From the IMG/VR virus record IMGVR_UViG_3300027963_000071, positions 1-64,000 of that record: a stretch of 64,000 nucleotides of DNA; one strand, given 5' to 3'. Shown here in pieces: positions 11,486 to 27,065 of this stretch (positions are counted from its first letter, which is position 1; each line of letters opens with the position of its first letter). The position numbers and the translations under genes are program-made. This DNA comes from a virus. The notes beneath the pieces were generated by a model. It worked only from the letters and a program-made list of their open reading frames with translations. It was not told where the DNA came from and made no database searches.

Positions 11486-12664
11486 ATGGCATCATCTGTT
11501 TATATAGAAGACATTTTTGTAGAATTTGCTGAGTATGTTGATAGTAACAAAATATCAATCAACCCTCAAGACGTCGGTGCGATTCATAGTTTCTATAATC
11601 ATATAACAAATAATTCTGCATTAACACAGAGCCAAGGCAATTTGTTAATTAAATTTTTGCACAAATATCAACCACAGGCAATACGTATTCACTTTGATTA
11701 TTCTATCTTTTTAGCGGATCCACAATGGCGGATGCCGTTTAGATTTCTTGACCTTAGCAAGAGAGTATGGGCAGAGAACGATGAAGAAAAAGTAACGTGG
11801 GTCTGTTTAAAATTTCCTTACCAATTAAAAAAAGAATTTGACGATGAATTTGGAGATAACACAATTCATTCGATATGGGATTCAGAGCGTAGGGTTAGAA
11901 AACTAATTCTGTACAGATATAATCTTATACATGTCTATGAATTTGCAATAAAACACAATTTTGAAATCGACGATACGTTCATGATTGCTGTGGGAGATGT
12001 TGAAGAGATTTGGCAAAATCAAGACGATATCGTACCGACAAGTGATTTGATTGCCGATTGGATTACCTTGTTTAACAACAGCGAAGAAACCGAAGATTGG
12101 TGGAAAGAACACAAAACAGGTTGTTATGAAAATGACCTGCTATTGGCAAAAAGCATGGGGTATCCATATGCTGGAAAACCTCACAGTACAATAGAAAAAA
12201 TAGCTGCTTCAAAAGAAAATGTTTTTTGGTTGAAAGACACTGTTGAATTTTTAAACATCTGCAATCAGGTACAGGGAAAGATCTGTATATTGCTAGACAG
12301 AGCAGGAAAATCGTTAGATTGGTTAGAACAGTTTGATCTTGCATTGGTACAATCATCTCTCCCAAGAGACACAGTTAGGGTATGTTTTAGAGCAGACAAA
12401 GAACAAGGCCCAGAACTTAATCAATGGATTAAAGATCACGGATTCGGTGGAAAAATTGATGGCGCCAAAGTATTAATTTTTAATCACAAGCCAGCTAAAT
12501 GGTTGTTTAAAGAACAAGAAAGTGTTAAAATAATAGCAAGTAACAATATATATTCACCAACAAACACAATATCAAGAGATTGGTTCAACAGCCATCCTTG
12601 TGTAATTTATATTGGTGATATAAAACCAACAATGTCAAAGGATCAGAAAATTGTCGAGTTGTAA
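11486..12664 (+). CDS. Hypothetical protein upstream of uvsW
   Basis: A 392-residue acidic protein I do not recognise. Residues 30-70 form a helical segment (VGAIHSFYNHI, then LTQSQGNLLIKFLHKYQ) of a kind seen at the front of several phage DNA-metabolism proteins. The C-terminal half has alternating strands such as KICILLDRAGKSLDWLEQFD and VRVCFRADKEQGPELNQWIKDHG, suggesting a Rossmann-like or helicase-like fold without a Walker A. It overlaps the uvsW start by 14 nt and has its own strong sigma70 promoter, so it probably acts with UvsW in early replication or recombination. That role is an inference from position. Confidence 0.7.
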   Translation: MASSVYIEDIFVEFAEYVDSNKISINPQDVGAIHSFYNHITNNSALTQSQGNLLIKFLHKYQPQAIRIHFDYSIFLADPQWRMPFRFLDLSKRVWAENDEEKVTWVCLKFPYQLKKEFDDEFGDNTIHSIWDSERRVRKLILYRYNLIHVYEFAIKHNFEIDDTFMIAVGDVEEIWQNQDDIVPTSDLIADWITLFNNSEETEDWWKEHKTGCYENDLLLAKSMGYPYAGKPHSTIEKIAASKENVFWLKDTVEFLNICNQVQGKICILLDRAGKSLDWLEQFDLALVQSSLPRDTVRVCFRADKEQGPELNQWIKDHGFGGKIDGAKVLIFNHKPAKWLFKEQESVKIIASNNIYSPTNTISRDWFNSHPCVIYIGDIKPTMSKDQKIVEL

Positions 12665-14105
12665 ACTCATTATAAGAGATGAAGTTAATATCAAGATTGA
12701 TGGTCTTGCTGTAGAGACAAGACGAAAAATTGTCAACAAATTAAAGTTTGATCTTCCCTATGCACGTCATATGCCAGCATACAAGCTAGGTCGTTGGGAC
12801 GGAACTAAAACATACTTTGGCATTGGCGGTACTGGTTATCTTGCACACTTAGATGTTATATTGCCTATCATAGAAAATGATGGATATGAAATAGAAGTAG
12901 AAGATCTTAGGACGCATACTACATTTAAGTTTGAACCAGTTACTGAAAATTATTGGGCAGATAAAGGCAAGACGTGGCCCAAAGGACATCCTGCGGCTGG
13001 ACAGCCTATCGTACTGCGTGACTATCAATATGACGTTGTAAACAAGTTTTTAGAAAATCCTCAAAGTCTACAAGAGGTAGCAACAGGTGCAGGTAAAACC
13101 ATTACTACTGCTACGTTAAGTCACTTATGTGAGCCGTATGGACGCACAATGGTCATTGTGCCTAACAAGAGTCTTGTGGTACAAACCGAAGAAGATTATA
13201 TCAATTTGGGGTTGGATGTTGGAGTGTACTTTGGCGATCGTAAAGAATTAGGACGAAAGCACACTATCTGTACTTGGCAAAGTTTGAATGTGCTGGATAA
13301 GAAAAGTTATGACGAGGATGTAATGTCGTTGGCCGAATTTGCCGAAGGTGTTAATGCAATCATCATTGACGAAGTGCATCAAGCCAAAGCAGAAGTATTG
13401 ACAAAATTGCTAACTCAGAATTTTAAAAACTGTTCTATACGTTGGGGACTGACTGGGACTGTGCCTAAAGAAGCGTGGGAGTTTCAAGGTATACTTGCCA
13501 GTATCGGACCAGTTATTAATCAGGTATCAGCACACGATCTACAAGAAAAAGGTGTGTTGGCTCAACTGCAAATTAATATTTTGCAGACAAACGAAATTGA
13601 AGTTTTTAAAAGTTTTGCAGACGAATATGCATTTTTAGTCACAGACGATTCTAGGATCACTTGGATGGCTAACCAAATTAAATCGTTAGCATTAAGTGGA
13701 AATACTCTTGTATTAATCAATAGAATTGACACCGGAAACAAATTAATTGAACGTATCCCTGAAGCAGTATTTGTCAGTGGTGGTATGAAACTAGACGACA
13801 GGAAAGAAGAATATGATGAAATTAAAACGAGCGATGGCAAGATTATTGTGGCGACTTACGGTGTGGCCTCTGTTGGTATTAATATCCCAAGGATTTTTAA
13901 TCTGGTTCTTATTGAACCCGGAAAGAGCTTTGTCCGCGTTATACAAAGCATTGGGCGAGGCATTAGAAAAGCAGAAGACAAAGACCATGTAGAGATTTGG
14001 GATATTACAAGTCAATGCAAGTATAGTAAAAGACATTTAACAGAACGCAAAAAGTTTTACAAGGATGCAAAGTATCCTTTCACAGTAACTAAGGTAAACA
14101 TATGA
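12651..14105 (+). CDS. uvsW: UvsW-like SF2 DNA/RNA helicase
   Basis: A 484-residue superfamily 2 helicase starting at TTG inside the previous gene. The N-terminal domain (LPYARHMPAYKLGRWDG, about 35-51) matches the UvsW substrate-recognition domain. Motif I ATGAGKT is at 144-150, motif II DEVH at 240-243, GLTGT near 270, and motif VI as IQSIGRGIRKAE near 435-446. T4 UvsW unwinds branched recombination intermediates and R-loops and drives the switch to recombination-dependent replication. Its pairing with UvsY in the same window supports a T4-type recombination system. Confidence 0.93.
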   Translation: MSSCKLIIRDEVNIKIDGLAVETRRKIVNKLKFDLPYARHMPAYKLGRWDGTKTYFGIGGTGYLAHLDVILPIIENDGYEIEVEDLRTHTTFKFEPVTENYWADKGKTWPKGHPAAGQPIVLRDYQYDVVNKFLENPQSLQEVATGAGKTITTATLSHLCEPYGRTMVIVPNKSLVVQTEEDYINLGLDVGVYFGDRKELGRKHTICTWQSLNVLDKKSYDEDVMSLAEFAEGVNAIIIDEVHQAKAEVLTKLLTQNFKNCSIRWGLTGTVPKEAWEFQGILASIGPVINQVSAHDLQEKGVLAQLQINILQTNEIEVFKSFADEYAFLVTDDSRITWMANQIKSLALSGNTLVLINRIDTGNKLIERIPEAVFVSGGMKLDDRKEEYDEIKTSDGKIIVATYGVASVGINIPRIFNLVLIEPGKSFVRVIQSIGRGIRKAEDKDHVEIWDITSQCKYSKRHLTERKKFYKDAKYPFTVTKVNI

Positions 14106-14608
14106 AAATTTTAACATTGAATAACACTTCGTTTGATCTAAACGAACTGCCAGACGAGGTGGATGAAGATACAAGATTTAGTGTATTAGACAACAGCAAT
14201 CCAGCAGAACCAGATTTCTTTTTTATGCCGCTGATATTTTTAGAGTCATTTAACAGTCCTGCAATACTATTGAAGATTGGCGGGTACGAAGTACAAATGC
14301 CTTTAGATTGGTGCATGATTGTTGGCGACAAGGACTGTGGACTTGATCCAGAAGTGTTACCATTAACTTCAATTAATGAACGTGGGTTTGACGCATTTAT
14401 TTTTAATCCTATCAAAGGATTCAAACCAGAATACATGAGCATCGAAATCATTAATATTTTTCAAGATGTTAAATGGTACTTTCCTAAAATGAAAAACGGG
14501 CAATTACTAACAGTTCCATTGCATGATGAGTTTAATCCTCCGTGTGCTTATTTTGTAAAAGAAGTTAGTCGTCAGAGTGAAGTACTACAGTTACATAAGG
14601 TTCTTTAA
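14102..14608 (+). CDS. Hypothetical protein in the replication operon
   Basis: A 168-residue acidic protein following uvsW with an ATGA overlap. It is not recognisable by motif. Notable segments are EPDFFFMPLIFLESFNSPAI, MPLDWCMIVGDKDCGLDPE and GQLLTVPLHDEFNPPCAYFV, a beta-rich pattern without membrane helices. Position between the helicase and clamp-loader genes suggests a replication or transcription accessory role, but this is only contextual. Confidence 0.7.
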   Translation: MKILTLNNTSFDLNELPDEVDEDTRFSVLDNSNPAEPDFFFMPLIFLESFNSPAILLKIGGYEVQMPLDWCMIVGDKDCGLDPEVLPLTSINERGFDAFIFNPIKGFKPEYMSIEIINIFQDVKWYFPKMKNGQLLTVPLHDEFNPPCAYFVKEVSRQSEVLQLHKVL

Positions 14609-14967: not shown

Positions 14968-15241
14968 ACCTGGCGCAACATACATATACGAAAGAAATGG
15001 CGAGGAAGTTTATGCTCGCGAATTTGGTGAGACTGAACGTAAACTAATTGGATACAAATATGAAATGGAAGACAAGCCGGATCCTCGAACCGATGACGGT
15101 CGTCCGTTGCATGAACATATGAAAGAAAACCAGTTGTGGGGCGAAATTCGCCGGGCGGCCAAAACAAATAGTGCTTTACACGAAGCACTAGAACGTGCTA
15201 TACTAATATATCACTTGAGCAAAGACCATGGGACAAAATAA
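14954..15241 (+). CDS. Small hypothetical protein
   Basis: A 95-residue charged protein. I take the ATG at 14954, 14 nt before the cupin stop, because upstream codons in the frame lie inside the cupin gene. It has an N-terminal beta-like segment (ATYIYERNGEEVYAREFG) and a helical, charged second half. No family was recognised. It overlaps the gp62-like gene by 14 nt, so it belongs to the replication operon. Confidence 0.6.
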   Translation: MGNLKPGATYIYERNGEEVYAREFGETERKLIGYKYEMEDKPDPRTDDGRPLHEHMKENQLWGEIRRAAKTNSALHEALERAILIYHLSKDHGTK

Positions 15242-15707
15242 ACACGTAGACCTTTTCAAAGACATGATACCTGCTGTTGACATGGGTATTAAAGAACTTT
15301 GGGATGCAACAACAGAAGACGGCCGTAAAGAGATCAAAGGTGATTTCTGGAATCTTAATCGATATATCAGCAATGTTAAATCTAACAATAGAGAATTGCA
15401 AGAGCATTTTGTGTTAACCACAAACGAATATTATAATAAGAACTGGAACGAAATTCAGAAGCATCCAAAGTTAGTTTGGCAGACATTATGTTTGTGCAGT
15501 CACGAGAGTAAGAAGACATTCTTTCACGAATGGATTCCTCTTAAAAAGCAAAAAAACAAAAAAGAAGAATTTTTAGCAGAACTATTTCCTAACACAAAAC
15601 TCAATGACATCACTACACTTGCAGCCATTACCACAGACAAAGAAATTAAAAAGTACTGCGAAGACCTTGGTTGGGATAAGAAAAAAGTTAATGAAATTAG
15701 ATTTTAA
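15228..15707 (+). CDS. 62: Clamp loader small subunit, gp62-like
   Basis: A 159-residue basic helical protein. It has the layout of T4/cyanophage gp62: an N-terminal FKDMIPAVDMGIKELWDA segment, a central FVLTTNEYYNKNWNEIQKHPKLVWQTLCL region where the helix-rich core packs against gp44, and a charged C-terminus. gp62 and gp44 form the ATPase that loads the sliding clamp. The gp44 partner is not in this window. Assignment is from the overall pattern, length and operon. Confidence 0.65.
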   Translation: MGQNKHVDLFKDMIPAVDMGIKELWDATTEDGRKEIKGDFWNLNRYISNVKSNNRELQEHFVLTTNEYYNKNWNEIQKHPKLVWQTLCLCSHESKKTFFHEWIPLKKQKNKKEEFLAELFPNTKLNDITTLAAITTDKEIKKYCEDLGWDKKKVNEIRF

Positions 15708-16374
15708 ATGTGAATACTGCGGCAAAGAATTTGCCAAAGAAAAAACGTTAGTTGTTCATGTATGTGAACAAAAGCGTCGACACATGAGTAAAAACGAAAG
15801 ACATGTTCAGGCAGGCTTACTCACCTTCCAACGCTTTTACGAAGTATCGCAAAAGTCTACAACGCCAAAAACATTTGATGATTTTGCAACAAGTTCATTT
15901 TATAATGCCATGGTAAAGTTTGGCAGTTTTATGATTAATACTGCGCCTATATATCCAGAAATGTTTATAGACTATGTTATAAAAAGCGGTGTTAAATTAG
16001 ATCATTGGTGTCGTGATGAGTTATATGATCAGTATATCAGCGAGATGATTAAGAAAGAGCCTGCAGACGGAGCCATACAGCGTACAATTAAAACTATGAT
16101 GGAATGGGGTGATTCTAACTCTGCACAGTGGGAACATTACTTTCAATATGTTAATTTAAATCGTGCTACACATGACATTAAAGAGGGTTTAGTAAGTCCG
16201 TGGATATTGTTAAATAGCAAGTCAGGAAAAGAAATGCTACAACGTATGAATGACGAGCAATTAGAAATCGTTGGTCCTATTATCGACCCGCAGTTTTGGT
16301 TACGTAGATTTAAAGCACTACCAGCAGATCACGAGTTAGTTAAAGAAGTCATCAAGGAGGCGAAGATACTGTAA
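15691..16374 (+). CDS. C2H2 zinc-finger protein next to clamp loader
   Basis: A 227-residue protein. I chose the ATG at 15691, 17 nt before the gp62 stop, because the longer frame upstream is the gp62 gene. Residues 6-30 form a zinc finger, CEYCGKEFAKEKTLVVHVC, followed by a basic stretch (EQKRRHMSKNERH) suited to nucleic acid binding. The remainder is helical with no known enzyme motif. Similar Zn-finger proteins lie beside replication genes in T4-like phages of marine bacteria. DNA binding is inferred. Confidence 0.72.
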   Translation: MKLDFKCEYCGKEFAKEKTLVVHVCEQKRRHMSKNERHVQAGLLTFQRFYEVSQKSTTPKTFDDFATSSFYNAMVKFGSFMINTAPIYPEMFIDYVIKSGVKLDHWCRDELYDQYISEMIKKEPADGAIQRTIKTMMEWGDSNSAQWEHYFQYVNLNRATHDIKEGLVSPWILLNSKSGKEMLQRMNDEQLEIVGPIIDPQFWLRRFKALPADHELVKEVIKEAKIL

Positions 16375-16598
16375 TGCCAAAAAGACCAGAACCTATTATT
16401 GAAGAAGAAGAATTGAAAGAAAACGAAGAGTTTATTTCAAGAGATGACATTGATATAGAAGTAGTAGTAGCAGAAGAATCAAACGATGTGTATGTAAAAT
16501 TTTCAGGATTTAACGATGATGAAGATGCTGAAGAATACGCACAATTCTTAGCAGAAACATTACCGTTATTATTATTTGAAAGCACAAGGTTACATTAA
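16374..16598 (+). CDS. Small acidic protein
   Basis: A 74-residue protein starting in a TAATG overlap and ending in another. The first half is highly acidic (IIEEEELKENEEFISRDD), the second half is predicted helical (DAEEYAQFLAETLPLLLF). It has no recognised domain. Its position between the zinc-finger gene and the miniature DnaE-like gene suggests a partner or inhibitor of a DNA-binding protein. Confidence 0.72.
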   Translation: MPKRPEPIIEEEELKENEEFISRDDIDIEVVVAEESNDVYVKFSGFNDDEDAEEYAQFLAETLPLLLFESTRLH

Positions 16599-17176
16599 TG
16601 CCAGATATTGACATAGACTTTTTAGACAGAGACCAATCACTAAAATTATTCAAACATATAGGCGCAAGCAGATATGATGAAGATAAATTGGTTAAGCATA
16701 ACACAGGTGTATATTTCCATGATGTTCCTGTAAATGCAGTCACAGGTCTATGTGCAGTACCTTACGAAACAGCAGAAGATCGCGGATATTTTAAAGTAGA
16801 TTTTTTAAATGTCAGCTTGTACAAAGGTGTTAGAGATGAAGCACATCTCATTCAACTGATGGAGATTGAACCACTATGGGACCTGTTGGAGCAAGACGAT
16901 TTCACGAATTTATTGTTTCACATAAACGGGTATGGAGGCTTGTTACGCAAGCTGAAGCCGAAGAGTATATTAGAACTGGCCGCGTGCCTTGCCTTGATAC
17001 GCCCAGGCAAGCGACATTTACAAGAGAAGACTTGGAACGATATTATGGACCAGATATGGGTGAAACCAGCGAATGGTGATTACCATTTTAAGAAGAGTCA
17101 TGCAATAGCCTATGCAACTGCTATTGTTGTACAGATGAATCTAATCTGTGAAGGTATTAGCTACGAGTATAATTAA
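16598..17176 (+). CDS. Miniature DnaE-like (C-family polymerase palm) protein
   Basis: A 192-residue protein collinear with conserved blocks of bacterial Pol III alpha. It begins MPDIDIDF, matching the palm motif that carries two catalytic aspartates (Asp3, Asp5). VKHNTGVYF matches the GKHAGGVVIA block, GYFKVDFLNV the block carrying the third catalytic Asp (Asp68), LLRKLKPKSILELAACLALIRPGK (118-138) the KRLxPxxFEDxIALxALxRPGP block, and FKKSHAIAYA (164-173) the FNKSHSAAYA block. DnaE is about 1,160 residues; PHP, most fingers and all C-terminal domains are missing. It may be a reduced polymerase, or a structural mimic that acts on host Pol III. Confidence 0.8.
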   Translation: MPDIDIDFLDRDQSLKLFKHIGASRYDEDKLVKHNTGVYFHDVPVNAVTGLCAVPYETAEDRGYFKVDFLNVSLYKGVRDEAHLIQLMEIEPLWDLLEQDDFTNLLFHINGYGGLLRKLKPKSILELAACLALIRPGKRHLQEKTWNDIMDQIWVKPANGDYHFKKSHAIAYATAIVVQMNLICEGISYEYN

Positions 17177-17544
17177 GAAGTTTTTCTTACCAACGTAATG
17201 CTCTTACGTTTGATGCGTTTTACAATGATATCATTTAGGCTTGTACACGGCCCAAATAACACTTTAACGTCTTTTGTGCTGAAATTTCGGATAGCATATC
17301 TATATGGTAGTATTTCTCTAAGTAAGAAAATATTGATAGGAATTTGTCTATTTGACTCCCACCACCATGCTTCCCCGAGCTCTAAAAATCGTGTTTTTTC
17401 TTCATCAGTTTTTATAGCAGTATAGTCGTATAAACTAGTTACCTGAGCATCTTGGTTGATAATTATACCCACATACTCGTGCTCAACATGGTTGATTACA
17501 CTGATGAATGGGAAGTTTTGTTGTAAGTTTTCAGTTATGCGCAT
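17173..17544 (-). CDS. Hypothetical protein, convergent with mini-DnaE gene
   Basis: A 123-residue protein on the minus strand. It has a strand-rich N-terminus (FPFISVINHVEHEYVGIIINQD), a conserved-looking Trp cluster (GEAWWWESNRQIPINIFL) and a basic tail (IIVKRIKRKSITLVRK). No function recognised. A TATAAT lies 8 nt before its ATG with a poor -35, in the gap shared with the divergent structural gene. Confidence 0.65.
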   Translation of the reverse strand: MRITENLQQNFPFISVINHVEHEYVGIIINQDAQVTSLYDYTAIKTDEEKTRFLELGEAWWWESNRQIPINIFLLREILPYRYAIRNFSTKDVKVLFGPCTSLNDIIVKRIKRKSITLVRKTS

Positions 17545-18431: not shown

Positions 18432-19442
18432 ATGACTCTTGTAGTTGATAAATTCCGAACACTAATACCAGCACGAGCTAAATCAAGTCCATCGGGCTGG
18501 ACTAGCTTTAATTCTCCCTGTTGTCACCATCGCGGGCATAGCCAAGACACACGAAAACGTGGTGGCTTAAGATTTGATCAAGGTGTTATATTCAATTGTT
18601 TTAACTGCAAATATACTGCAAGTTGGCAACCTGGCCGCCCAATATCAGAGAAATTTAAATCATTATGTAGATGGATGGGAGCCAATGACGATGATATTAA
18701 ATTATTAGTATTTGAAGCACTTAAGACAGAGTCCGAGGACTACGAGCCCGAAGCACAAGTTGCCAAAGTTGAATTTGAAGACAAAGAGTTGCCAGAAGGC
18801 TCGCTGTCTATTAGTGAATGGGTTAACTCTGCTTATCTTCCGGATATCTCGGAAGACATTGGACCTGTAATAGACTATGTCATAAGCCGAGGATATGATC
18901 CGTTCGATGGAAACTTCTATTGGAGTCCTAGCGCCGGATATGAAAATAGAGTGATTATTCCTTTCCGTTACCAACATAGGATAGTAGGCAGTACTGCACG
19001 AAAAGTAGTAGATGGAAGGCCTAAATATCTATCAGATCAACATCCTCATTTTGTTTTCAATACTGATGCACAAAAAGAAAATCAAAAATACATATTTGTA
19101 GTAGAAGGACCGTTTGATGCACTTAGCGTTGGTGGTGTAGCTTTACTAACTAATGATATCGCAGATCAGCAGGCAAGAATCATAAATGGTCTAGGCAGTG
19201 AAATCATTGTAATTCCAGACCAAGACGAGGCTGGATTAAATTTGATTAAAAAAGCCATGCATTATAATTGGAGTGTAGCATTTCCCACGTGGGATGACAA
19301 TGTTAAAGACGTAGCAGACGCAGTTCAAAAATATGGTAAATTATTTGTAATAGTCGATGCTATCAAAACCGCCGTTAGTGGTGATATAAAACTTACTATG
19401 GCTTTACGTAAACTGGAGAACAAACTTGAAAAAAATACTTGA
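18432..19442 (+). CDS. 61: DNA primase, T4 gp61-like (Zn-Toprim)
   Basis: A 336-residue primase. The N-terminal zinc-binding domain uses Cys30/Cys31, His32/His33 and the pair CFNC (56-59). The Toprim domain is visible as FVVEGPFDALSV (catalytic Glu near residue 219) and IPDQDEAG (metal-binding Asp pair near 255). It makes RNA primers for lagging-strand synthesis and works with the gp41-like helicase encoded at 21125. It ends with a basic helical tail that may contact the helicase. Confidence 0.9.
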   Translation: MTLVVDKFRTLIPARAKSSPSGWTSFNSPCCHHRGHSQDTRKRGGLRFDQGVIFNCFNCKYTASWQPGRPISEKFKSLCRWMGANDDDIKLLVFEALKTESEDYEPEAQVAKVEFEDKELPEGSLSISEWVNSAYLPDISEDIGPVIDYVISRGYDPFDGNFYWSPSAGYENRVIIPFRYQHRIVGSTARKVVDGRPKYLSDQHPHFVFNTDAQKENQKYIFVVEGPFDALSVGGVALLTNDIADQQARIINGLGSEIIVIPDQDEAGLNLIKKAMHYNWSVAFPTWDDNVKDVADAVQKYGKLFVIVDAIKTAVSGDIKLTMALRKLENKLEKNT

Positions 19443-19539
19443 TTTTATTCTGTACCCTTACAGAAAATACAAAGAAAATAAAGAATGGAAAAAGCGTTTA
19501 GCAGAACTCCGCAAACGCGATCCGTTCATTTACAAATGA
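19426..19539 (+). CDS. 37-residue basic protein (DPFIYK tail)
   Basis: A small frame starting at TTG inside the primase end and stopping at the TGA overlapping the next ATG. It encodes MKKILDFILYPYRKYKE followed by a very basic helix and a terminal RDPFIYK. Short proteins of similar size and ending occur in T4-like phages of marine bacteria as far as I recall. The overlap structure at both ends supports translation. Function unknown. Confidence 0.6.
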   Translation: MKKILDFILYPYRKYKENKEWKKRLAELRKRDPFIYK

Positions 19540-20504
19540 TTACCTGGGGGATAAACGCTCTTAATCACGATGCTAGTATTGCCGTTGTGATTGACGGACA
19601 GTTAAAATTTTGGGAACGTAGCAGCAAATATTCTGGTATTCCGGGTGATGATAAAATACATTCTGGATTGTTCAGTGATGCAATTAATGCCAGTGGTTAT
19701 CGTGGGCCGGACAATATTGTTTGGTACGAGCGTCCTTGGTTAAAGAAACTTAGACAATTCCGTGCCGGGCAGTATCATTGGGCATTTGATATGGATGAAC
19801 TGCCTAGTCGATATTTAAAATCAATTGCATTAGGTTATCCGAGAATATCGTATATGCCTCATCATCTAAGTCATGCAGCCGCAGGATTTTTAACATCTCC
19901 ATTTGATGAAGCCGCAGTTGTAGTATTAGATGCTATGGGCGAATGGGAGTCTGCAAGCATATGGCACGGTAAAGGCACAGACTTAAAAAAAGTGTGGAGC
20001 CGTAGTTATCCTACTAGTTTAGGATTGTTCTATTCAGCATTCACAGATTTAATAGGGTTGAAACCGTTGGGCGAGGAGCATATTCTTCAACAGTACAGTA
20101 GCAAAGGGAATTACCACCGCTATCGTATTGAAGTTGAAAGTTATTGGAATTCAAATTGGACATTATCTGAAAATTTACACAAAGGTGTACGCTCGTGGAA
20201 GGATCCTATTGTCACTGATCAAGATAGATATGACATTGCGGCCGCAGTACAATACGTATTTGAAAACCAAGCAATGCAGGTAATGAACACTGCTAAACAT
20301 CTAACAGGTAGTGAGAATTTAGTTTATATGGGGGGATGTGCTATGAATAGCAAATTCAATCAAGAATTAGACTCTAGTTGGAATGGCATTTGGAGTTTGC
20401 CTATACCCGGTGATGCCAGCAGTACTATTGGTGCAGCATTATACTATCAAAAGAAAAGAATTAAGTGGCGTGGGCCTCTTGCAAATTATGTCAAGATCAA
20501 GTAA
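19536..20504 (+). CDS. Truncated carbamoyltransferase (NodU/CmcH type)
   Basis: A 322-residue protein. The ATG at 19536 overlaps the stop of the small basic protein (ATGA) and gives the expected first strand MITWGINALNHDASIAVV. The Kae1-like metal motif is YMPHHLSHAAAGF (His109, His110, His113) followed by VVVLDAMGEWES. Full-length family members are about 550-600 residues, with a C-terminal YrdC-like domain that forms the carbamoyl-adenylate. That domain is absent here, so the phage form may use a partner or a different donor. It could modify a sugar made by the glycan block. Confidence 0.82.
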   Translation: MITWGINALNHDASIAVVIDGQLKFWERSSKYSGIPGDDKIHSGLFSDAINASGYRGPDNIVWYERPWLKKLRQFRAGQYHWAFDMDELPSRYLKSIALGYPRISYMPHHLSHAAAGFLTSPFDEAAVVVLDAMGEWESASIWHGKGTDLKKVWSRSYPTSLGLFYSAFTDLIGLKPLGEEHILQQYSSKGNYHRYRIEVESYWNSNWTLSENLHKGVRSWKDPIVTDQDRYDIAAAVQYVFENQAMQVMNTAKHLTGSENLVYMGGCAMNSKFNQELDSSWNGIWSLPIPGDASSTIGAALYYQKKRIKWRGPLANYVKIK

Positions 20505-20513
20505 AATATAAGT

Positions 20514-21128
20514 ATGTTCACTGAAAAGAAATATGTTTGCGGAAATCAATGGCTCATAGATACAGAGTATCCTGCCTATGAAGAATTGTTACCATTTTTA
20601 AATATTGAAGACAAGTACGAATACAGTCGAGAAACCACTGCATTTGGTGCAAGGCAATTTCCATTATGGACCGATCAAGATTTGGCAATGGTTTACAAAT
20701 CTAAAGAACATCGTGATTTTACTCCACTGGATGGTTGGGATAAAGTGCTTGAAAAAACAGTAGCATGGACACAGGCCAAAGTATTACAGTATAGATTTTT
20801 TCATAAACTACAACCTGCTATTTCTTGGTATATAACCTACGAAGAAGGCGGATGGCAAGGTATGCATACACATGATGAAAATTCAATTACACAAATCATT
20901 TACCTCGATCCAACACCACACGTTACTCCGGACTCGCCAGCAAAGGCTGCTGGGTATGGTGCTATGTATGCTATGATGGCAAGTAAAGACAAACACAAAT
21001 ATGTAACAGTAAACGGATTTCCGGGTAGATGTATAATAATGCCAGGCAATATATATCACGGGGTATATCCGGTAAAATCCGTTCCAAGAAGGACAGTAGT
21101 CATAGACTACATATATAAAAGACAATGA
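20514..21128 (+). CDS. 2OG-Fe(II) oxygenase-like protein
   Basis: A 204-residue jelly-roll protein. A likely iron-binding His-x-His-Asp motif is in GGWQGMHTHDENSITQIIYL, and the distal His/Arg in IIMPGNIYHGVYPVKSVPRR, the arrangement of 2-oxoglutarate-dependent dioxygenases. It is the first of five such proteins in the window. Its ATG overlaps a TATAAGTA sequence and has no Shine-Dalgarno; its stop overlaps the helicase start. Substrate unknown. Confidence 0.65.
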   Translation: MFTEKKYVCGNQWLIDTEYPAYEELLPFLNIEDKYEYSRETTAFGARQFPLWTDQDLAMVYKSKEHRDFTPLDGWDKVLEKTVAWTQAKVLQYRFFHKLQPAISWYITYEEGGWQGMHTHDENSITQIIYLDPTPHVTPDSPAKAAGYGAMYAMMASKDKHKYVTVNGFPGRCIIMPGNIYHGVYPVKSVPRRTVVIDYIYKRQ

Positions 21129-22540
21129 TAAAAACATACGATTACGAAGTACAGAAATTATATCTTGAGATAATGCTGTCAGATGCCGAAACATTTGTAC
21201 GCTGTCAAGGTATTTTTGATCACAGCCTGTTTGATCGCAAACTGCAAGATGCGGCAGAGTTTATGAATGCTTATGCTAAAGAGTATAATGTATTACCGGA
21301 CTACAATATGGTTAATGCAACTTGCAGAACAGAGTTTGTAAAACCAGAAGACCTCAAAGATGGACATATGGATTGGTTCATGGATGAGTTTGAAAAGTTT
21401 ACACAACATAAAGCTCTTGAACGTGCAATCATACAATCAGCAGATTTATTAGAAAAGCATGACTACGGTGCAGTAGAAGTGTTAATCAAAGAAGCGGTGC
21501 AAATTGGCCTTGCTCGCGATATGGGCACTGACTATTTTGCTGATCCTCGTGGACGACTGTTGGGAATTAAAGATAAGAATGGACAGGTAAGCACAGGGTG
21601 GCCAAGTATGGATCGTAGACTATTTGGAGGAATGAATCGTGGAGAGCTTAATATTTTTGCAGGTGGTTCCGGAGCAGGTAAATCTTTATTTCTTGCTAAC
21701 TTGGGAGTCAATTGGGCATTGCAAGGACTTAATGTTGTTTATCTAACATTAGAACTTTCAGAAGCATTGGTTAGTATGCGTATTGATGCAATGCTCACAG
21801 GAGTTGCAACTAAAGACATTTTTAAAGATCTAGACGACATCGAAATGAAAGTCAAGATGATTGGCAAGAAGGCTGGTATGTTACAGGTCAAGTATATGCC
21901 TAGTGGTAAGACTGCCAACGATATCCGTGCATATTTGAAAGAGTATGAAATCAAAGTAGGCAAGAAAGTAGACGTGTTGCTAGTTGACTATTTGGACTTG
22001 TTGATGCCAGTTAGCAAGAAGATTAGTCCAGCGGACTTGTTTATCAAAGACAAGTATGTGTCAGAAGAACTGCGTAATCTAGCAGTGGAAAAGAACTGTG
22101 TGTTTGTAACTGCGGCACAATTGAACCGTGGTGCTGTTGAAGAAGTAGAGTTTGATCACAGTCACATTTCAGGTGGATTGAGTAAGATTCAAACAGCAGA
22201 CAACGTGTTTGGTATCTTTACAAGTCGTGCTATGCGTGAGCGTGGACGTTATCAAATCCAGTTAATGAAGACACGTAGTTCAAGCGGTGTTGGCATGAAG
22301 ATTGATCTAGAGTTTAATCTAGAATCATTAAAGATTAGCGATCTTCCAGAAGACGAGCAAGAGAATAGCGGAGCAACAAGCCGTGGTGCTAGTTCAATCA
22401 TCGACAGTATCAAACGAAAAACAGAGGTAGCACAGCGTGAAGAACCAACAGAAGGTGTACCTGTAGGAAAAGTTCGAGCACACGTCGAATCGACAAAATT
22501 AAGAGAAATCTTAAACAGTATGGGCGGCGATGAAGAATAA
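21125..22540 (+). CDS. 41: Replicative DNA helicase, gp41/DnaB-like
   Basis: A 471-residue RecA-fold hexameric helicase. The Walker A is AGGSGAGKS (179-187), Walker B is VDVLLVDYLDLL near 287, and a DnaB-like SHISGGLSKIQTAD near 340 precedes an arginine-containing segment. The N-terminal 140 residues form the helical primase-interaction domain. It unwinds DNA ahead of the fork and partners the gp61-like primase 1.7 kb upstream. Start overlaps the previous stop (ATGATA). Confidence 0.93.
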   Translation: MIKTYDYEVQKLYLEIMLSDAETFVRCQGIFDHSLFDRKLQDAAEFMNAYAKEYNVLPDYNMVNATCRTEFVKPEDLKDGHMDWFMDEFEKFTQHKALERAIIQSADLLEKHDYGAVEVLIKEAVQIGLARDMGTDYFADPRGRLLGIKDKNGQVSTGWPSMDRRLFGGMNRGELNIFAGGSGAGKSLFLANLGVNWALQGLNVVYLTLELSEALVSMRIDAMLTGVATKDIFKDLDDIEMKVKMIGKKAGMLQVKYMPSGKTANDIRAYLKEYEIKVGKKVDVLLVDYLDLLMPVSKKISPADLFIKDKYVSEELRNLAVEKNCVFVTAAQLNRGAVEEVEFDHSHISGGLSKIQTADNVFGIFTSRAMRERGRYQIQLMKTRSSSGVGMKIDLEFNLESLKISDLPEDEQENSGATSRGASSIIDSIKRKTEVAQREEPTEGVPVGKVRAHVESTKLREILNSMGGDEE

Positions 22541-23166: not shown

Positions 23167-23874
23167 GTGAAGTTACGTGAGTTTACAGAAACACCCCTAG
23201 TCACAGTCAATCGTAGATTAAATCCTAAGATTTGGAATGGTGATTCACTAGATCCAGAAGTAAGACAAAAACTCAAAGAAATTGCCGATGCATTTCAAGA
23301 GTTCATCGGTGTTGATTTAAACATCGTTGATTACACAATCACAGGGTCTAATGCCAACTATACTTGGACCAGCCATTCGGATCTAGATCTTCACATTATT
23401 GTTGCAGGACTACCAAGTGACGAAGCTCGCGAACTGTTCAATGCCAAAAAGGCACTCTGGGGTGAGCAACATAACATCACAGTAAAAGGCCTTCCAGTTG
23501 AGTGTTATGTACAAGGCGAAGATGAACCGCATCATTCAACAGGTGTGTATTCTATAGTAGATGATGCTTGGGTTTCAGAACCTAAAAAAATCAAACCAAA
23601 GATTAATGATTCAGCAGTCAATGCTAAAAAAGAATCTGCCATTCACGATATTGAAACAGCATTTTTATCTAACGATCTCAATAAGTTGCGCTCAGTAAAA
23701 GAGAAAATAACCAACATGAGAAAAGCTGGATTAGAACGTGCAGGTGAATGGAGTGTTGAGAATCTTGTATTCAAAATTCTGCGCAATCTAGGATTGATAG
23801 ATAAGATTACAGAAAAGATCCGTGAACTAGAAGATCAAGAACTTAGCCTAGAGCAGGCTAATGCTATCGATTAA
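23167..23874 (+). CDS. Nucleotidyltransferase-fold protein with possible capsid-targeting N-terminus
   Basis: A 235-residue protein starting at GTG (an in-frame ATG 2 nt earlier hits a stop). Residues 1-8 (MKLREFTE) resemble a capsid-targeting peptide. The catalytic motif of the pol beta-type nucleotidyltransferases is visible: ITGSNANYTWTSHSDLDLHII, i.e. GS followed by DLDLH, near residues 58-78. Such enzymes transfer nucleotides to proteins, RNA or antibiotics. The C-terminus is helical. If it is packaged and injected, it could modify a host target early, as T4 Alt does. That link is an inference. Confidence 0.75.
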   Translation: MKLREFTETPLVTVNRRLNPKIWNGDSLDPEVRQKLKEIADAFQEFIGVDLNIVDYTITGSNANYTWTSHSDLDLHIIVAGLPSDEARELFNAKKALWGEQHNITVKGLPVECYVQGEDEPHHSTGVYSIVDDAWVSEPKKIKPKINDSAVNAKKESAIHDIETAFLSNDLNKLRSVKEKITNMRKAGLERAGEWSVENLVFKILRNLGLIDKITEKIRELEDQELSLEQANAID

Positions 23875-24452
23875 TGTTTTTTATTGACTAGATAAGTTGA
23901 ATTAAAACTTACAGTAATTCTAGAGTCAGTTTTATTATTCACAGTGTCGTGTTCTAACCAACTGGGAAATATCACCATCATTCCTGTTACACAAGGAAAT
24001 TCAAACCACATTTGATTTAGCGGGCTGTCTCTTTCGATGTGTTCAAACATACGTAGATGATTCAACGGATTGTACAATCTCAACGGAACACTACCGGGAT
24101 CTGCGTGTAGATATAATGCTCCTGAAACCACACTACATTCATGACGGTGTCTTTCAACTCGATGCCCTTGTCCTATCTTATTAAACCAAGAATTTGAAAT
24201 CGCCACTGGCTCTAATCCTAGTTCACCTGTATATTGATCAACAGCACCCTGTATTCTACTGCGAATGCCTTTTAATAGCATGTTGTCTAGCAATCGTCCG
24301 TGTCCGTGAACATAACTGCTTTCTGCACCGCTGACTAGTCCATGTGGTGCTGTCTTTTGTCGTTCACATATATCTCGCAACAATTGAAATTCTGGATCTT
24401 GTGAAAAGTCATGTTGAAAAACCAGTGTGGGAAATAATGAAATTCTGTTCAT
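23871..24452 (-). CDS. 2OG-Fe(II) oxygenase superfamily protein
   Basis: A 193-residue putative 2OG-Fe(II) oxygenase. The motif SNSWFNKIGQGHRVERHRHE supplies the HxH-type metal site, SGALYLHADPGSVPLRLYNP is the beta strand block, and MVIFPSWLEHDTVNNK with RITVSFN supplies the distal His and Arg. This group is common in phages and often has no known substrate. The stop overlaps the plus-strand nucleotidyltransferase gene by 4 nt; the start overlaps the SGNH-like gene stop. Confidence 0.8.
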   Translation of the reverse strand: MNRISLFPTLVFQHDFSQDPEFQLLRDICERQKTAPHGLVSGAESSYVHGHGRLLDNMLLKGIRSRIQGAVDQYTGELGLEPVAISNSWFNKIGQGHRVERHRHECSVVSGALYLHADPGSVPLRLYNPLNHLRMFEHIERDSPLNQMWFEFPCVTGMMVIFPSWLEHDTVNNKTDSRITVSFNSTYLVNKKH

Positions 24453-25285
24453 ATAAGATTTACTCGTTTACTCCAAGGCATAACTGTTTTACGTCCTTGT
24501 GCTTTAATTTTTCTATTGTATTCGCAGACTTCAGCGCATAATTCTCTAGCACAAAATTCTAAATCGTCTAGGGTATTTTCTTTTAATAGTCCTGCAACAA
24601 ATCCTGTGGTTAAATCCAATTGACTGTCGTTGGTTAATGCAGCCACAACTTTGTCTGCCATAATCTTATGATTGGTTAGACATAGATGATTGTATCGTGC
24701 ATCAATGCCGCCAGGCCAAAAACTTTGATCATGTTTATCAAGATCACGAGGATCAAACTCAATGGCCTGTGTGTCGTCCATGAGAATTCCTTTGGCCCAA
24801 TTGAGTTCTGAAAAATGTTCTCCCTGTGCAACATCTTGATCAAAACATTTTATCATCAATGGACGTTTTAGACCTTTCTTTAACACTTGATAGGCAATGT
24901 AACTCAAGCGATTATTAACATGTACGATATCTAAACTAGGACGTTGGATATATCGTATGTAATGTTCGATGGCCTTGCTCTGTTCTCGACTGCACCAGCG
25001 ATCTAGATCAATAACATACGGATGGCTTAGTCTTGGCTGTTCTTCAAAGAACCAAAATCTACTGGGGTGTGTTAATGCCACTATGACATAGTCATCTTCG
25101 GAGATTTCACTGTCTAACCAAGTCTGTAGTTTTTGCCAGCACCAATCTTGCGCAGTTCCCATTTCTGACGGGTTGATCAACTCTAGGCCCATCTGTTCAG
25201 CAACCATCATAGGCCATACTGCTGTAGGATCATTGGGTTTAGGAGGTGCTACAAAACTGTCACCTATAACATACAGTCGTGCCAT
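24449..25285 (-). CDS. SGNH-hydrolase-like protein, tandem copy 1
   Basis: A 278-residue protein. I use the ATG at 25285 (TGATG overlap) rather than the GTG one codon before. The N-terminal VIGDSF is the GDS block of SGNH/GDSL hydrolases with the nucleophile Ser. DIVALTHPSRFWF-like and RYNHLCLTNHKIMADKV segments are conserved with the two upstream paralogues; the latter could hold the catalytic His. Family members are esterases or acyltransferases of sugars and lipids. About 30 percent of positions are visibly shared with the next gene. Confidence 0.72.
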   Translation of the reverse strand: MARLYVIGDSFVAPPKPNDPTAVWPMMVAEQMGLELINPSEMGTAQDWCWQKLQTWLDSEISEDDYVIVALTHPSRFWFFEEQPRLSHPYVIDLDRWCSREQSKAIEHYIRYIQRPSLDIVHVNNRLSYIAYQVLKKGLKRPLMIKCFDQDVAQGEHFSELNWAKGILMDDTQAIEFDPRDLDKHDQSFWPGGIDARYNHLCLTNHKIMADKVVAALTNDSQLDLTTGFVAGLLKENTLDDLEFCARELCAEVCEYNRKIKAQGRKTVMPWSKRVNLI

Positions 25286-26190
25286 CACGGATTCCTTATG
25301 CTCTTGTTTGGAGTTATTCCAGCACGTTTAAGCCAAGGCAATATGGGTTTGTAATATGGTTTTTTCAACTGTGTAGTTCTGTACTTCAGTGCGCTCATAT
25401 CCAACTGCTGTTGACAAAATTCTAGATCGTTGACAGCATCATCAGTTAACAGTCCACGATGAAATCCATCAGTGATGTTCAACTGGGTTTGATGGAATAG
25501 GCTGGCAGACACACGATCACTTAGAATCTCATGATTGCTTAGACACATGTGATTATACCGACAGTCGATGCCCTGCCAATAGCCATTGTTTTCTTCACGT
25601 ACTGGATCGGCAAATTCCCAATACTGTATATCTTCAAATAGACTGCCCTGGCTTATCAGCAGTTCATCAGACTGTTCAAACTCTAACAGCAACTGATCAA
25701 AACCTTTGATGACCAAAGGTTTTCGCAGACCCTGTTTTAAAACCTGATAACTGAGCCAACCCATTCTGTTGTTCAAGTGTATGGCATCTAGACTGGGTCG
25801 TTGTATGTGCTTGATGAACAGCTCTATGGCACGACATTCTTCCGGACTGCAATATCTGTCCAAGTCTATGATGTTGCTGTTTGACATACCAGGATCGCGT
25901 TCTAAGTACCAAAACCTACTGGCATGTGTAAGAGCCACGATGAGATAGTCTTGGTCAGTGATAACTCCGTCGGCGATCCAGGCCTGTAGTGTCTGCCACA
26001 TGTAGTCTTGGCTAACACCCATCATTGAACTGTTGACCAATAGCACAGGCTCTTGATGCAGAGCTGCTAACTTTTGAGCAGTGGCTCGAGTCCAGGTCAT
26101 CGTAGTATCTGACGACATGGGGCTTACAGAAAAACTGTCGCCAATTACAAATAGTTTTCTAGATTCTGGTAATGATAATCTGTCGGTCAT
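25285..26190 (-). CDS. SGNH-hydrolase-like protein, tandem copy 2
   Basis: A 301-residue paralogue starting at the ATG at 26190, which overlaps the upstream stop (ATGA). FVIGDSFSVSP carries the putative Ser nucleophile. LIVALTHASRFWYLERDP, IIDLDRYCSPEECRAIELFIKHIQRPSLD and CRYNHMCLSNHEILSDRV align in order with the flanking copies. The shared IDLDRxC and IQRPSLDxxHxNNR segments are specific to this phage family and set it apart from ordinary GDSL lipases. Confidence 0.72.
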   Translation of the reverse strand: MTDRLSLPESRKLFVIGDSFSVSPMSSDTTMTWTRATAQKLAALHQEPVLLVNSSMMGVSQDYMWQTLQAWIADGVITDQDYLIVALTHASRFWYLERDPGMSNSNIIDLDRYCSPEECRAIELFIKHIQRPSLDAIHLNNRMGWLSYQVLKQGLRKPLVIKGFDQLLLEFEQSDELLISQGSLFEDIQYWEFADPVREENNGYWQGIDCRYNHMCLSNHEILSDRVSASLFHQTQLNITDGFHRGLLTDDAVNDLEFCQQQLDMSALKYRTTQLKKPYYKPILPWLKRAGITPNKSIRNP

Positions 26191-27065
26191 TGTTTTATTG
26201 TAGCAGAGCGTAGCCAACTTGTCAAGTTTCGTTTCAATGCTTTGGTGTCTTTCTTCTGTTGCATCAGAGCCATCATTTCCAAATTCAGTTCTTCGGCGCA
26301 GAATTTGGCATCGCTCATCACTTGATCATCGAATATGTTTTCAATAAATTCTGGCTGTGTAAGATCCAACACCCTGTCGTTTTTCAAACTGTCGGCGATC
26401 AAAGCAGCCAATATCTTGTGATTGCTCAGGGTCAAATGATTGTATCTAGGATCAAACCCAGCAAAATACTCTGTAGTGGTGTTGTCTGTTCTTGTTTCTT
26501 CAGGGAATTCTCGATTCTGTAGATCGTAAAGATTTCCCTGGGCAATGTTCAGCCCCTTGTAGACCTCAGCATCGTATAGATCAAATTCAAATGCTTTGAT
26601 AACCAATGGACGACGAATACCCCATTGATGTGTGGCCATGGCCAACCAGCCCAAGCGACTCAACTGCTGAATGGTGTCCAATCTAGGACGCTGTATTTCT
26701 TTCATGTACAGCCGTATTGCCTGGCTCTGAGCCTCGGTGATGTGATCATCGAGATCTATGGTGTAATGCCCATTGCTGAGATCAGGTTTTGAGTCAACGT
26801 ACCAATACCTATTGGGATGTGTCAGCACCACAATCACATAGTCCTCGGGCTGTATCAGACCCTCGTGAAGCCAACGCTGTAGATACATCCAACAGTAGTC
26901 TTGGCTGACTCCGTGCCAACTTTCATTTACTATTTTGACTGTGGTGCCCGTGTCGACGGTCAACAGTGCGGCAACCAATTCAGGCCAAATTCTAGGACGA
27001 TCAATTGTTGTTCGAGGTTGACTGAAGCTGTCGCCAATGATCCATAGGGTGGGTTCTTTGTTCAT
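26187..27065 (-). CDS. SGNH-hydrolase-like protein, tandem copy 3
   Basis: A 292-residue first gene of the three-copy tandem. WIIGDSFSQPR holds the GDS block, VVLTHPNRYWYVDSKPDLS and IDLDDHITEAQSQAIRLYM the family blocks, and PRYNHLTLSNHKILAALI the likely His block. Upstream lies GATAAGTA, 5 nt before the ATG, and no Shine-Dalgarno. The three copies look like a local expansion; they may have different acyl or glycan substrates. Confidence 0.72.
   Translation of the reverse strand: MNKEPTLWIIGDSFSQPRTTIDRPRIWPELVAALLTVDTGTTVKIVNESWHGVSQDYCWMYLQRWLHEGLIQPEDYVIVVLTHPNRYWYVDSKPDLSNGHYTIDLDDHITEAQSQAIRLYMKEIQRPRLDTIQQLSRLGWLAMATHQWGIRRPLVIKAFEFDLYDAEVYKGLNIAQGNLYDLQNREFPEETRTDNTTTEYFAGFDPRYNHLTLSNHKILAALIADSLKNDRVLDLTQPEFIENIFDDQVMSDAKFCAEELNLEMMALMQQKKDTKALKRNLTSWLRSATIKQ

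Follow-up and report, generated by a model that had tools for sequence, protein, structure and literature searches.

Genes around a DnaE-like open reading frame

The window analysed here is a stretch of 64,000 nucleotides of phage DNA. To judge by gene order and homology, it carries a T4-type replication operon in which the gene for a 192-aa protein related to the alpha subunit of DNA polymerase III (Pol III alpha, DnaE) is embedded (Table 1). In order, the operon comprises genes for UvsW, a phrog_11279 protein, a gp62-like protein, a zinc-finger protein and a small acidic protein, then the DnaE-like gene (hereafter the C-half), followed by a convergent gene, a structural-type gene, the primase and the helicase. 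The C-half open reading frame (ORF) has an ATG start, which overlaps the stop codon of the preceding 74-aa ORF in the form TAATG.

Table 1. Features of the replication region, with the evidence for each assignment
Feature	Position	Strand	Basis
UvsW-like helicase	12651..14105	+	74/93 loci long enough; annotated uvsW at the same place in RaK2
Conserved protein phrog_11279, function not assigned	14102..14608	+	80/102 loci long enough
gp62-like clamp-loader small subunit, phrog_11758	15228..15707	+	106/107 loci long enough
C2H2-like zinc-finger protein, phrog_11058	15691..16374	+	Homologue in 109/112 C-half loci; zf-C2H2 sub-threshold, E=0.004
74-aa acidic protein, stop overlaps C-half start	16374..16598	+	57/100 homologous loci long enough (similarity)
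C-terminal half of predicted split minimal Pol III alpha, 192 aa	16598..17176	+	Homology, motifs, fold matches
Convergent conserved protein phrog_11637	17173..17544	-	105/112 C-half loci, always opposite strand
DNA primase (gp61-like)	18432..19442	+	phrog_47, E=3e-34; 99 loci
Replicative helicase (gp41/DnaB-like)	21125..22540	+	Position and annotation of RaK2/Phosso equivalent; 77 loci

The earlier note on this DNA had placed clamp-loader and zinc-finger genes next to the C-half, and both neighbors are real, belonging to phrog_11758 and phrog_11058, respectively. The gp62 assignment is based on the homologue of the former gene at another phage locus (L255), which directly follows gp44 and matches the clamp-loader family phrog_225 over its full length (E=5.5e-6). 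On this evidence phrog_11758, a family listed under "unknown function", is the gp62-like small subunit of the clamp loader; gp62 is given as missing in the CBB genome paper. Profile searches with the 74-aa acidic protein returned no family match above threshold.

Several other genes lie close to the replication genes. A carbamoyltransferase (Carbam_trans_N, E=3e-32) encoded at 19485-20504, between the primase and the helicase, has homologues in 62 C-half loci at a similar distance and is perhaps part of a DNA-base modification pathway. Two 2OG-Fe(II) oxygenases (PF13759) are encoded at 20514-21128 and 23871-24452, and the minus strand of 24449-27065 carries three tandem paralogues of ~280-310 aa that start with ...VIGDSF... 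and look SGNH-hydrolase-like by eye, without any Pfam match above threshold.

A trans-split relative of Pol III alpha

The translation of the C-half gene corresponds exactly to the protein with DnaE-ordered blocks described in the earlier note: MPDIDIDF, KHNTGV, GYFKVDFL, LKPKSxxELAACLALIRPGK and FKKSHAxAYA follow one another as they do in DnaE. The protein matches phrog_405, which comprises full-length phage DnaE (E=4e-10), and, far more strongly, the 197-residue "DNA polymerase" family phrog_11778 (E=8e-68; residues 3-185 on 8-193 of 197), that is, the C-unit family of Iyer et al. (2021), to which it corresponds over the full length. An hhalign comparison of 48 C-half homologues with a profile of the DnaE family aligned residues 1-186 with E. 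coli DnaE 399-777 (E=2e-9, P=96%). Collectively, these profile matches identify the 192-aa protein as a homologue of Pol III alpha, well beyond chance. The check by profile search proposed in the earlier note therefore bears out the DnaE relationship, but not through the two Pfam families named there: PF17657 scores below the cut-off (E=0.0014, 18.4 bits vs 22) and the Pfam profile search found no match of PF07733 on the C-half.

Structure prediction, proposed there as well, points in the same direction. AlphaFold2 models of the two halves (the second of which is introduced below), each modeled singly, reach a pLDDT of 90.2 for the C-half and 90.9 for the N-half. All 12 of the 12 best PDB matches of the C-half model in Foldseek are Pol III alpha or PolC, with probabilities up to 1.00, modest E-values (4e-3) and TM-scores of 0.3-0.5; its leading matches in BFVD are phage DnaE proteins. 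For the N-half model, the 11 best PDB matches are without exception Pol III alpha.

Relatives of the C-half are widespread among phages. A tblastn search retrieved 85 phage records, 63 of which cover >=80% of the query, nearly all of them from jumbo phages, including Atu_ph07, Phosso, PA5oct, RaK2, 121Q, GAP32, CBB, Munch, XacN1 and SCTP-2, and IMG/VR holds at least 569 relatives; a scan of viral contigs with the SCTP-2 C-half as query gave no matches. A scan of bacterial genomes yielded 24 loci, and the 23 that were checked are ordinary dnaE/polC-sized ORFs (793-1807 aa), on which ground a cellular origin of the C-half was rejected.

The portion of the palm that precedes the C-half is encoded by a second phage gene of about 155-200 aa, the N-half, exemplified by GAP32_323, RaK2 gp373, Phosso 138 and Paride_0087. 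A search with PF07733 in ten named phages and five large contigs detected this second small ORF in 13 of the 15, the match being confined to profile positions ~11-125 of 260; the same profile matches all 40 N-halves scanned and exceeds the threshold in the member shown. In hhalign, the N-half covers E. coli DnaE 210-393 (E=1.3e-12, P=98%), so that the two gene products, whose families are distinct (phrog_11127 for the N-half and phrog_11778 for the C-half), are exact complements without overlap, one ending at the equivalent of E. coli residue 393 and the other starting at 399. The N-half terminates in WGVGRGSSVASYVLFLIGVHKVDSIKYNLDxxEFLK, with the stop codon directly after the equivalent of E. 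coli FERFLN, and the break point is identical throughout: all 94 N-half ORFs stop right after the ...EFLR equivalent of this motif. No intein-like or extra sequence is present at the split, and no natural fusion of the two halves occurs among 112 C-half loci and 94 N-half loci.

The two halves also occur together. By profile search, both halves are present in all 10 jumbo phages examined, whose genomes are complete or nearly so, and in the 141-kb non-jumbo Alishewanella phage Slicko01; the N-half was thus detected in 11/11 complete phage records. In the tblastn tables, 58 of the 60 best C-half records are also among the 60 best N-half records, and Vibrio phage 2.275.O, one of the two outside this overlap, has an N-half by profile. 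As a rule, tens to hundreds of kb separate the two genes; at the loci L255 and L256 the N-half lies ~4 kb upstream of the C-half on the same strand, in the order N-half, GroES-like, gp44, gp62-like, zinc finger, C-half in the case of L255. No ORF with a GRGSS palm, such as the N-half carries, is found within the window, which is part of a 66,908-base virus record; given that this record is a fragment and that the two genes are usually far apart, it need not contain the N-half.

Thus, the sequence relationships indicate that the 192-aa protein represents the C-terminal half of a minimal Pol III alpha split in trans, and not a whole mini-polymerase. The description "stripped-down C-family polymerase" in the earlier note was right as to the kind of enzyme and wrong as to its being self-contained: a whole mini-polymerase was rejected since the GRGSS-bearing N-palm is encoded by another gene.

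Active site and predicted role

In the alignment, Asp3, Asp5 and Asp68 of the C-half correspond to E. coli D401, D403 and D555, Lys66 to K553 and His168 to H760, and none of the five residues varies among 48 C-halves, the most distant of which show 38% identity. The three catalytic aspartates reported in the earlier note are therefore indeed kept. In E. coli, D401, D403 and D555 are catalytic, and H760 has been proposed as the steric gate that excludes ribonucleotides (PMC8485763). The GRGS phosphate-binding motif is located on the separate N-half and not in the C-half polypeptide, and GRGSSV shows no variation among 40 N-halves; the residues of a DNA-polymerase active site are thus shared out between the two polypeptides and conserved in each. 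Moreover, median omega values in RaK2-like phages of 0.046 for C-halves and 0.053 for N-halves indicate that both are under strong purifying selection.

The reduction relative to DnaE is extensive. The C-half has no counterpart of E. coli ~411-508 (thumb) or of the middle fingers (~645-755, including LRRAMGKK 708-715), and the PHP domain and everything after E. coli 777, including the clamp-binding and OB regions, are absent. The lack of PHP, beta-binding and OB regions had been pointed out in the earlier note; the alignment, confined to DnaE 399-777, adds the thumb.

With respect to other replication enzymes, all complete relatives tested encode a T4-like family B polymerase, none is found on the 66.9-kb fragment, and no family A polymerase (PolA) was detected in the phages carrying the split Pol III alpha. 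The family B polymerase itself appears to be split in two ORFs in Slicko01 (OQ508956.1, 3529-5033; 578+322 aa) and in Atu_ph07 (NC_042013.1, 212336-213688; 578+418 aa). A DnaQ-type exonuclease is encoded by 8/11 complete phages, and an obligatory DnaQ partner was rejected on account of this incomplete distribution.

We propose, with a probability of roughly 0.72, that the C-half supplies the metal-binding palm and shortened fingers of a minimal C-family polymerase which T4-like phages, jumbo phages for the most part, encode in two pieces, and that the two halves assemble and perform accessory DNA synthesis. Given that there is no intein or extra sequence at the split, the halves would associate without covalent joining and could together make up a single active site of the pol-beta type for adding dNTPs to a primer; the C-half alone should not polymerize because the NTP-binding N-palm with the GRGSS motif is the product of a distant second gene. 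The most likely role of the predicted enzyme is that of an accessory DNA polymerase beside the family B polymerase, which would perform the bulk of replication. As no thumb, OB or clamp-binding region of its own is seen, the split polymerase may, less firmly, be a low-processivity enzyme at the phage fork, engaged in primer extension, gap filling or repair and presumably making use of the phage clamp loader, whose gene is a close neighbor of the C-half.

Alternatively, the halves might assemble without polymerizing and form a replisome subunit with a structural or regulatory function, or the nucleotidyltransferase fold might have been put to another reaction. In favor of this reading, the thumb and the middle fingers have no counterpart, so that any polymerase activity may be feeble or gone; a family B polymerase is already available to the phage; and several other conserved proteins are encoded in the immediate vicinity of the C-half. 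We nevertheless consider this distinctly less probable than a polymerizing pair, since loss of catalysis is not expected where proteins as far apart as 38% identity all keep the three metal-binding Asp, GRGSS and the equivalents of K553 and H760, and the steric-gate His points to selection for dNTPs.

A role against the host appears very improbable. The similarity of the C-half to a piece of DnaE and its origin from a lytic phage would fit the suggestions of the earlier note that it swaps into and poisons host Pol III or acts as a decoy occupying the host clamp or clamp loader. However, the closest cellular relatives of the C-half are only remotely similar (24-36%, over parts only), so that mimicry of one host enzyme is unlikely, and neither the poison nor the decoy reading is supported because the active site is invariant, the genes are under purifying selection, the complementary halves are kept together, and the C-half keeps the same position within the replication operon in phages that infect very different hosts. 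The notion that the C-half is a decaying remnant of an acquired dnaE gene, suggested by the large deletions relative to DnaE and by the annotation of the N-half as "truncated" by some authors (PMC5259590), is already contradicted by omega values of ~0.05 for both halves, by the hundreds of intact relatives and by the uniform break point, and we give it practically no weight.

Extending the favored reading of a polymerizing pair, it is possible, albeit doubtful, that this heterodimeric, thumbless C-family polymerase of ~350 aa with a dNTP steric gate is a dedicated second polymerase at the T4-like fork, for example one that extends primers before hand-off to the family B replicase; no smaller functional Pol III alpha would then be known, and the enzyme could serve as a model for either the ancestral form or extreme reduction. 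Activity of the pair would mark out the minimal catalytic core of the bacterial replicases and would mean that T4-like giant phages operate two unrelated polymerase families within one replisome. The small system also lends itself to genetics in phages of E. coli, for example 121Q and PBECO4. In 121Q (KM507819), gene 56 is annotated as the N-half, and the C-half is located at 13327-13911.

Comparison with known systems

Iyer et al. (2021; PMC7824862) have described, for jumbo phages of group 2.2, a minimal, phage-specific Pol III alpha that consists of separate proteins from distant genes: an N-terminal unit that binds NTP and a C-terminal one that binds metal and template. It coexists with a family B polymerase and, as these authors suggest, may aid the synthesis of one strand or repair and may resemble ancestral Pol III. 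The 192-aa protein is a metagenomic member of this published family, with the same N/C split, distant genes and, in relatives, a family B polymerase; the present instance differs in being a fragment of an uncultured phage in which only the C unit is seen. Four details apparently go beyond the description in PMC7824862 and may be reported elsewhere: the exact position of the break (E. coli 393/399), the preserved steric gate, the presence of gp62-like and zinc-finger genes as neighbors and the occurrence in a 141-kb non-jumbo phage. Earlier genome papers (PMC5259590, PMC6102473) had recognized no more than an alpha subunit, called "truncated", and an epsilon subunit.

Compared with bacterial DnaE, the phage pair retains, in order, the palm motifs, the three Asp, the K553 and H760 equivalents and the RPG and NKSHA-type fingers motifs; whereas DnaE comprises ~1,160 aa, the pair amounts to ~350-360 aa in two polypeptides, without the PHP, thumb, middle-fingers, clamp-binding and OB regions. 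In cyanobacteria, DnaE is likewise encoded by two distant genes, the full-size halves being joined by a split intein; the phage pair, in contrast, has no intein sequence and its N-half ends at the palm. The DnaE of Tenacibaculum phage Larrie (ON950054.1, 62602-66182, locus L228) is also divided, in nearly the same loop (FERFLN on one side, LPDIDSDF on the other). It is full-size and comes from two neighboring genes, for 515 and 676 aa, of which the first is long enough for a PHP domain and has ~50 extra residues after FERFLNS. Finally, in L255-type phages the C-half follows the gp44 and gp62-like genes, roughly at the place that gp43 takes relative to gp44 and gp62 in the T4 gene order. The gp43-like family B polymerase has a fold unrelated to that of the C-half and is encoded by a separate gene in the same phages.
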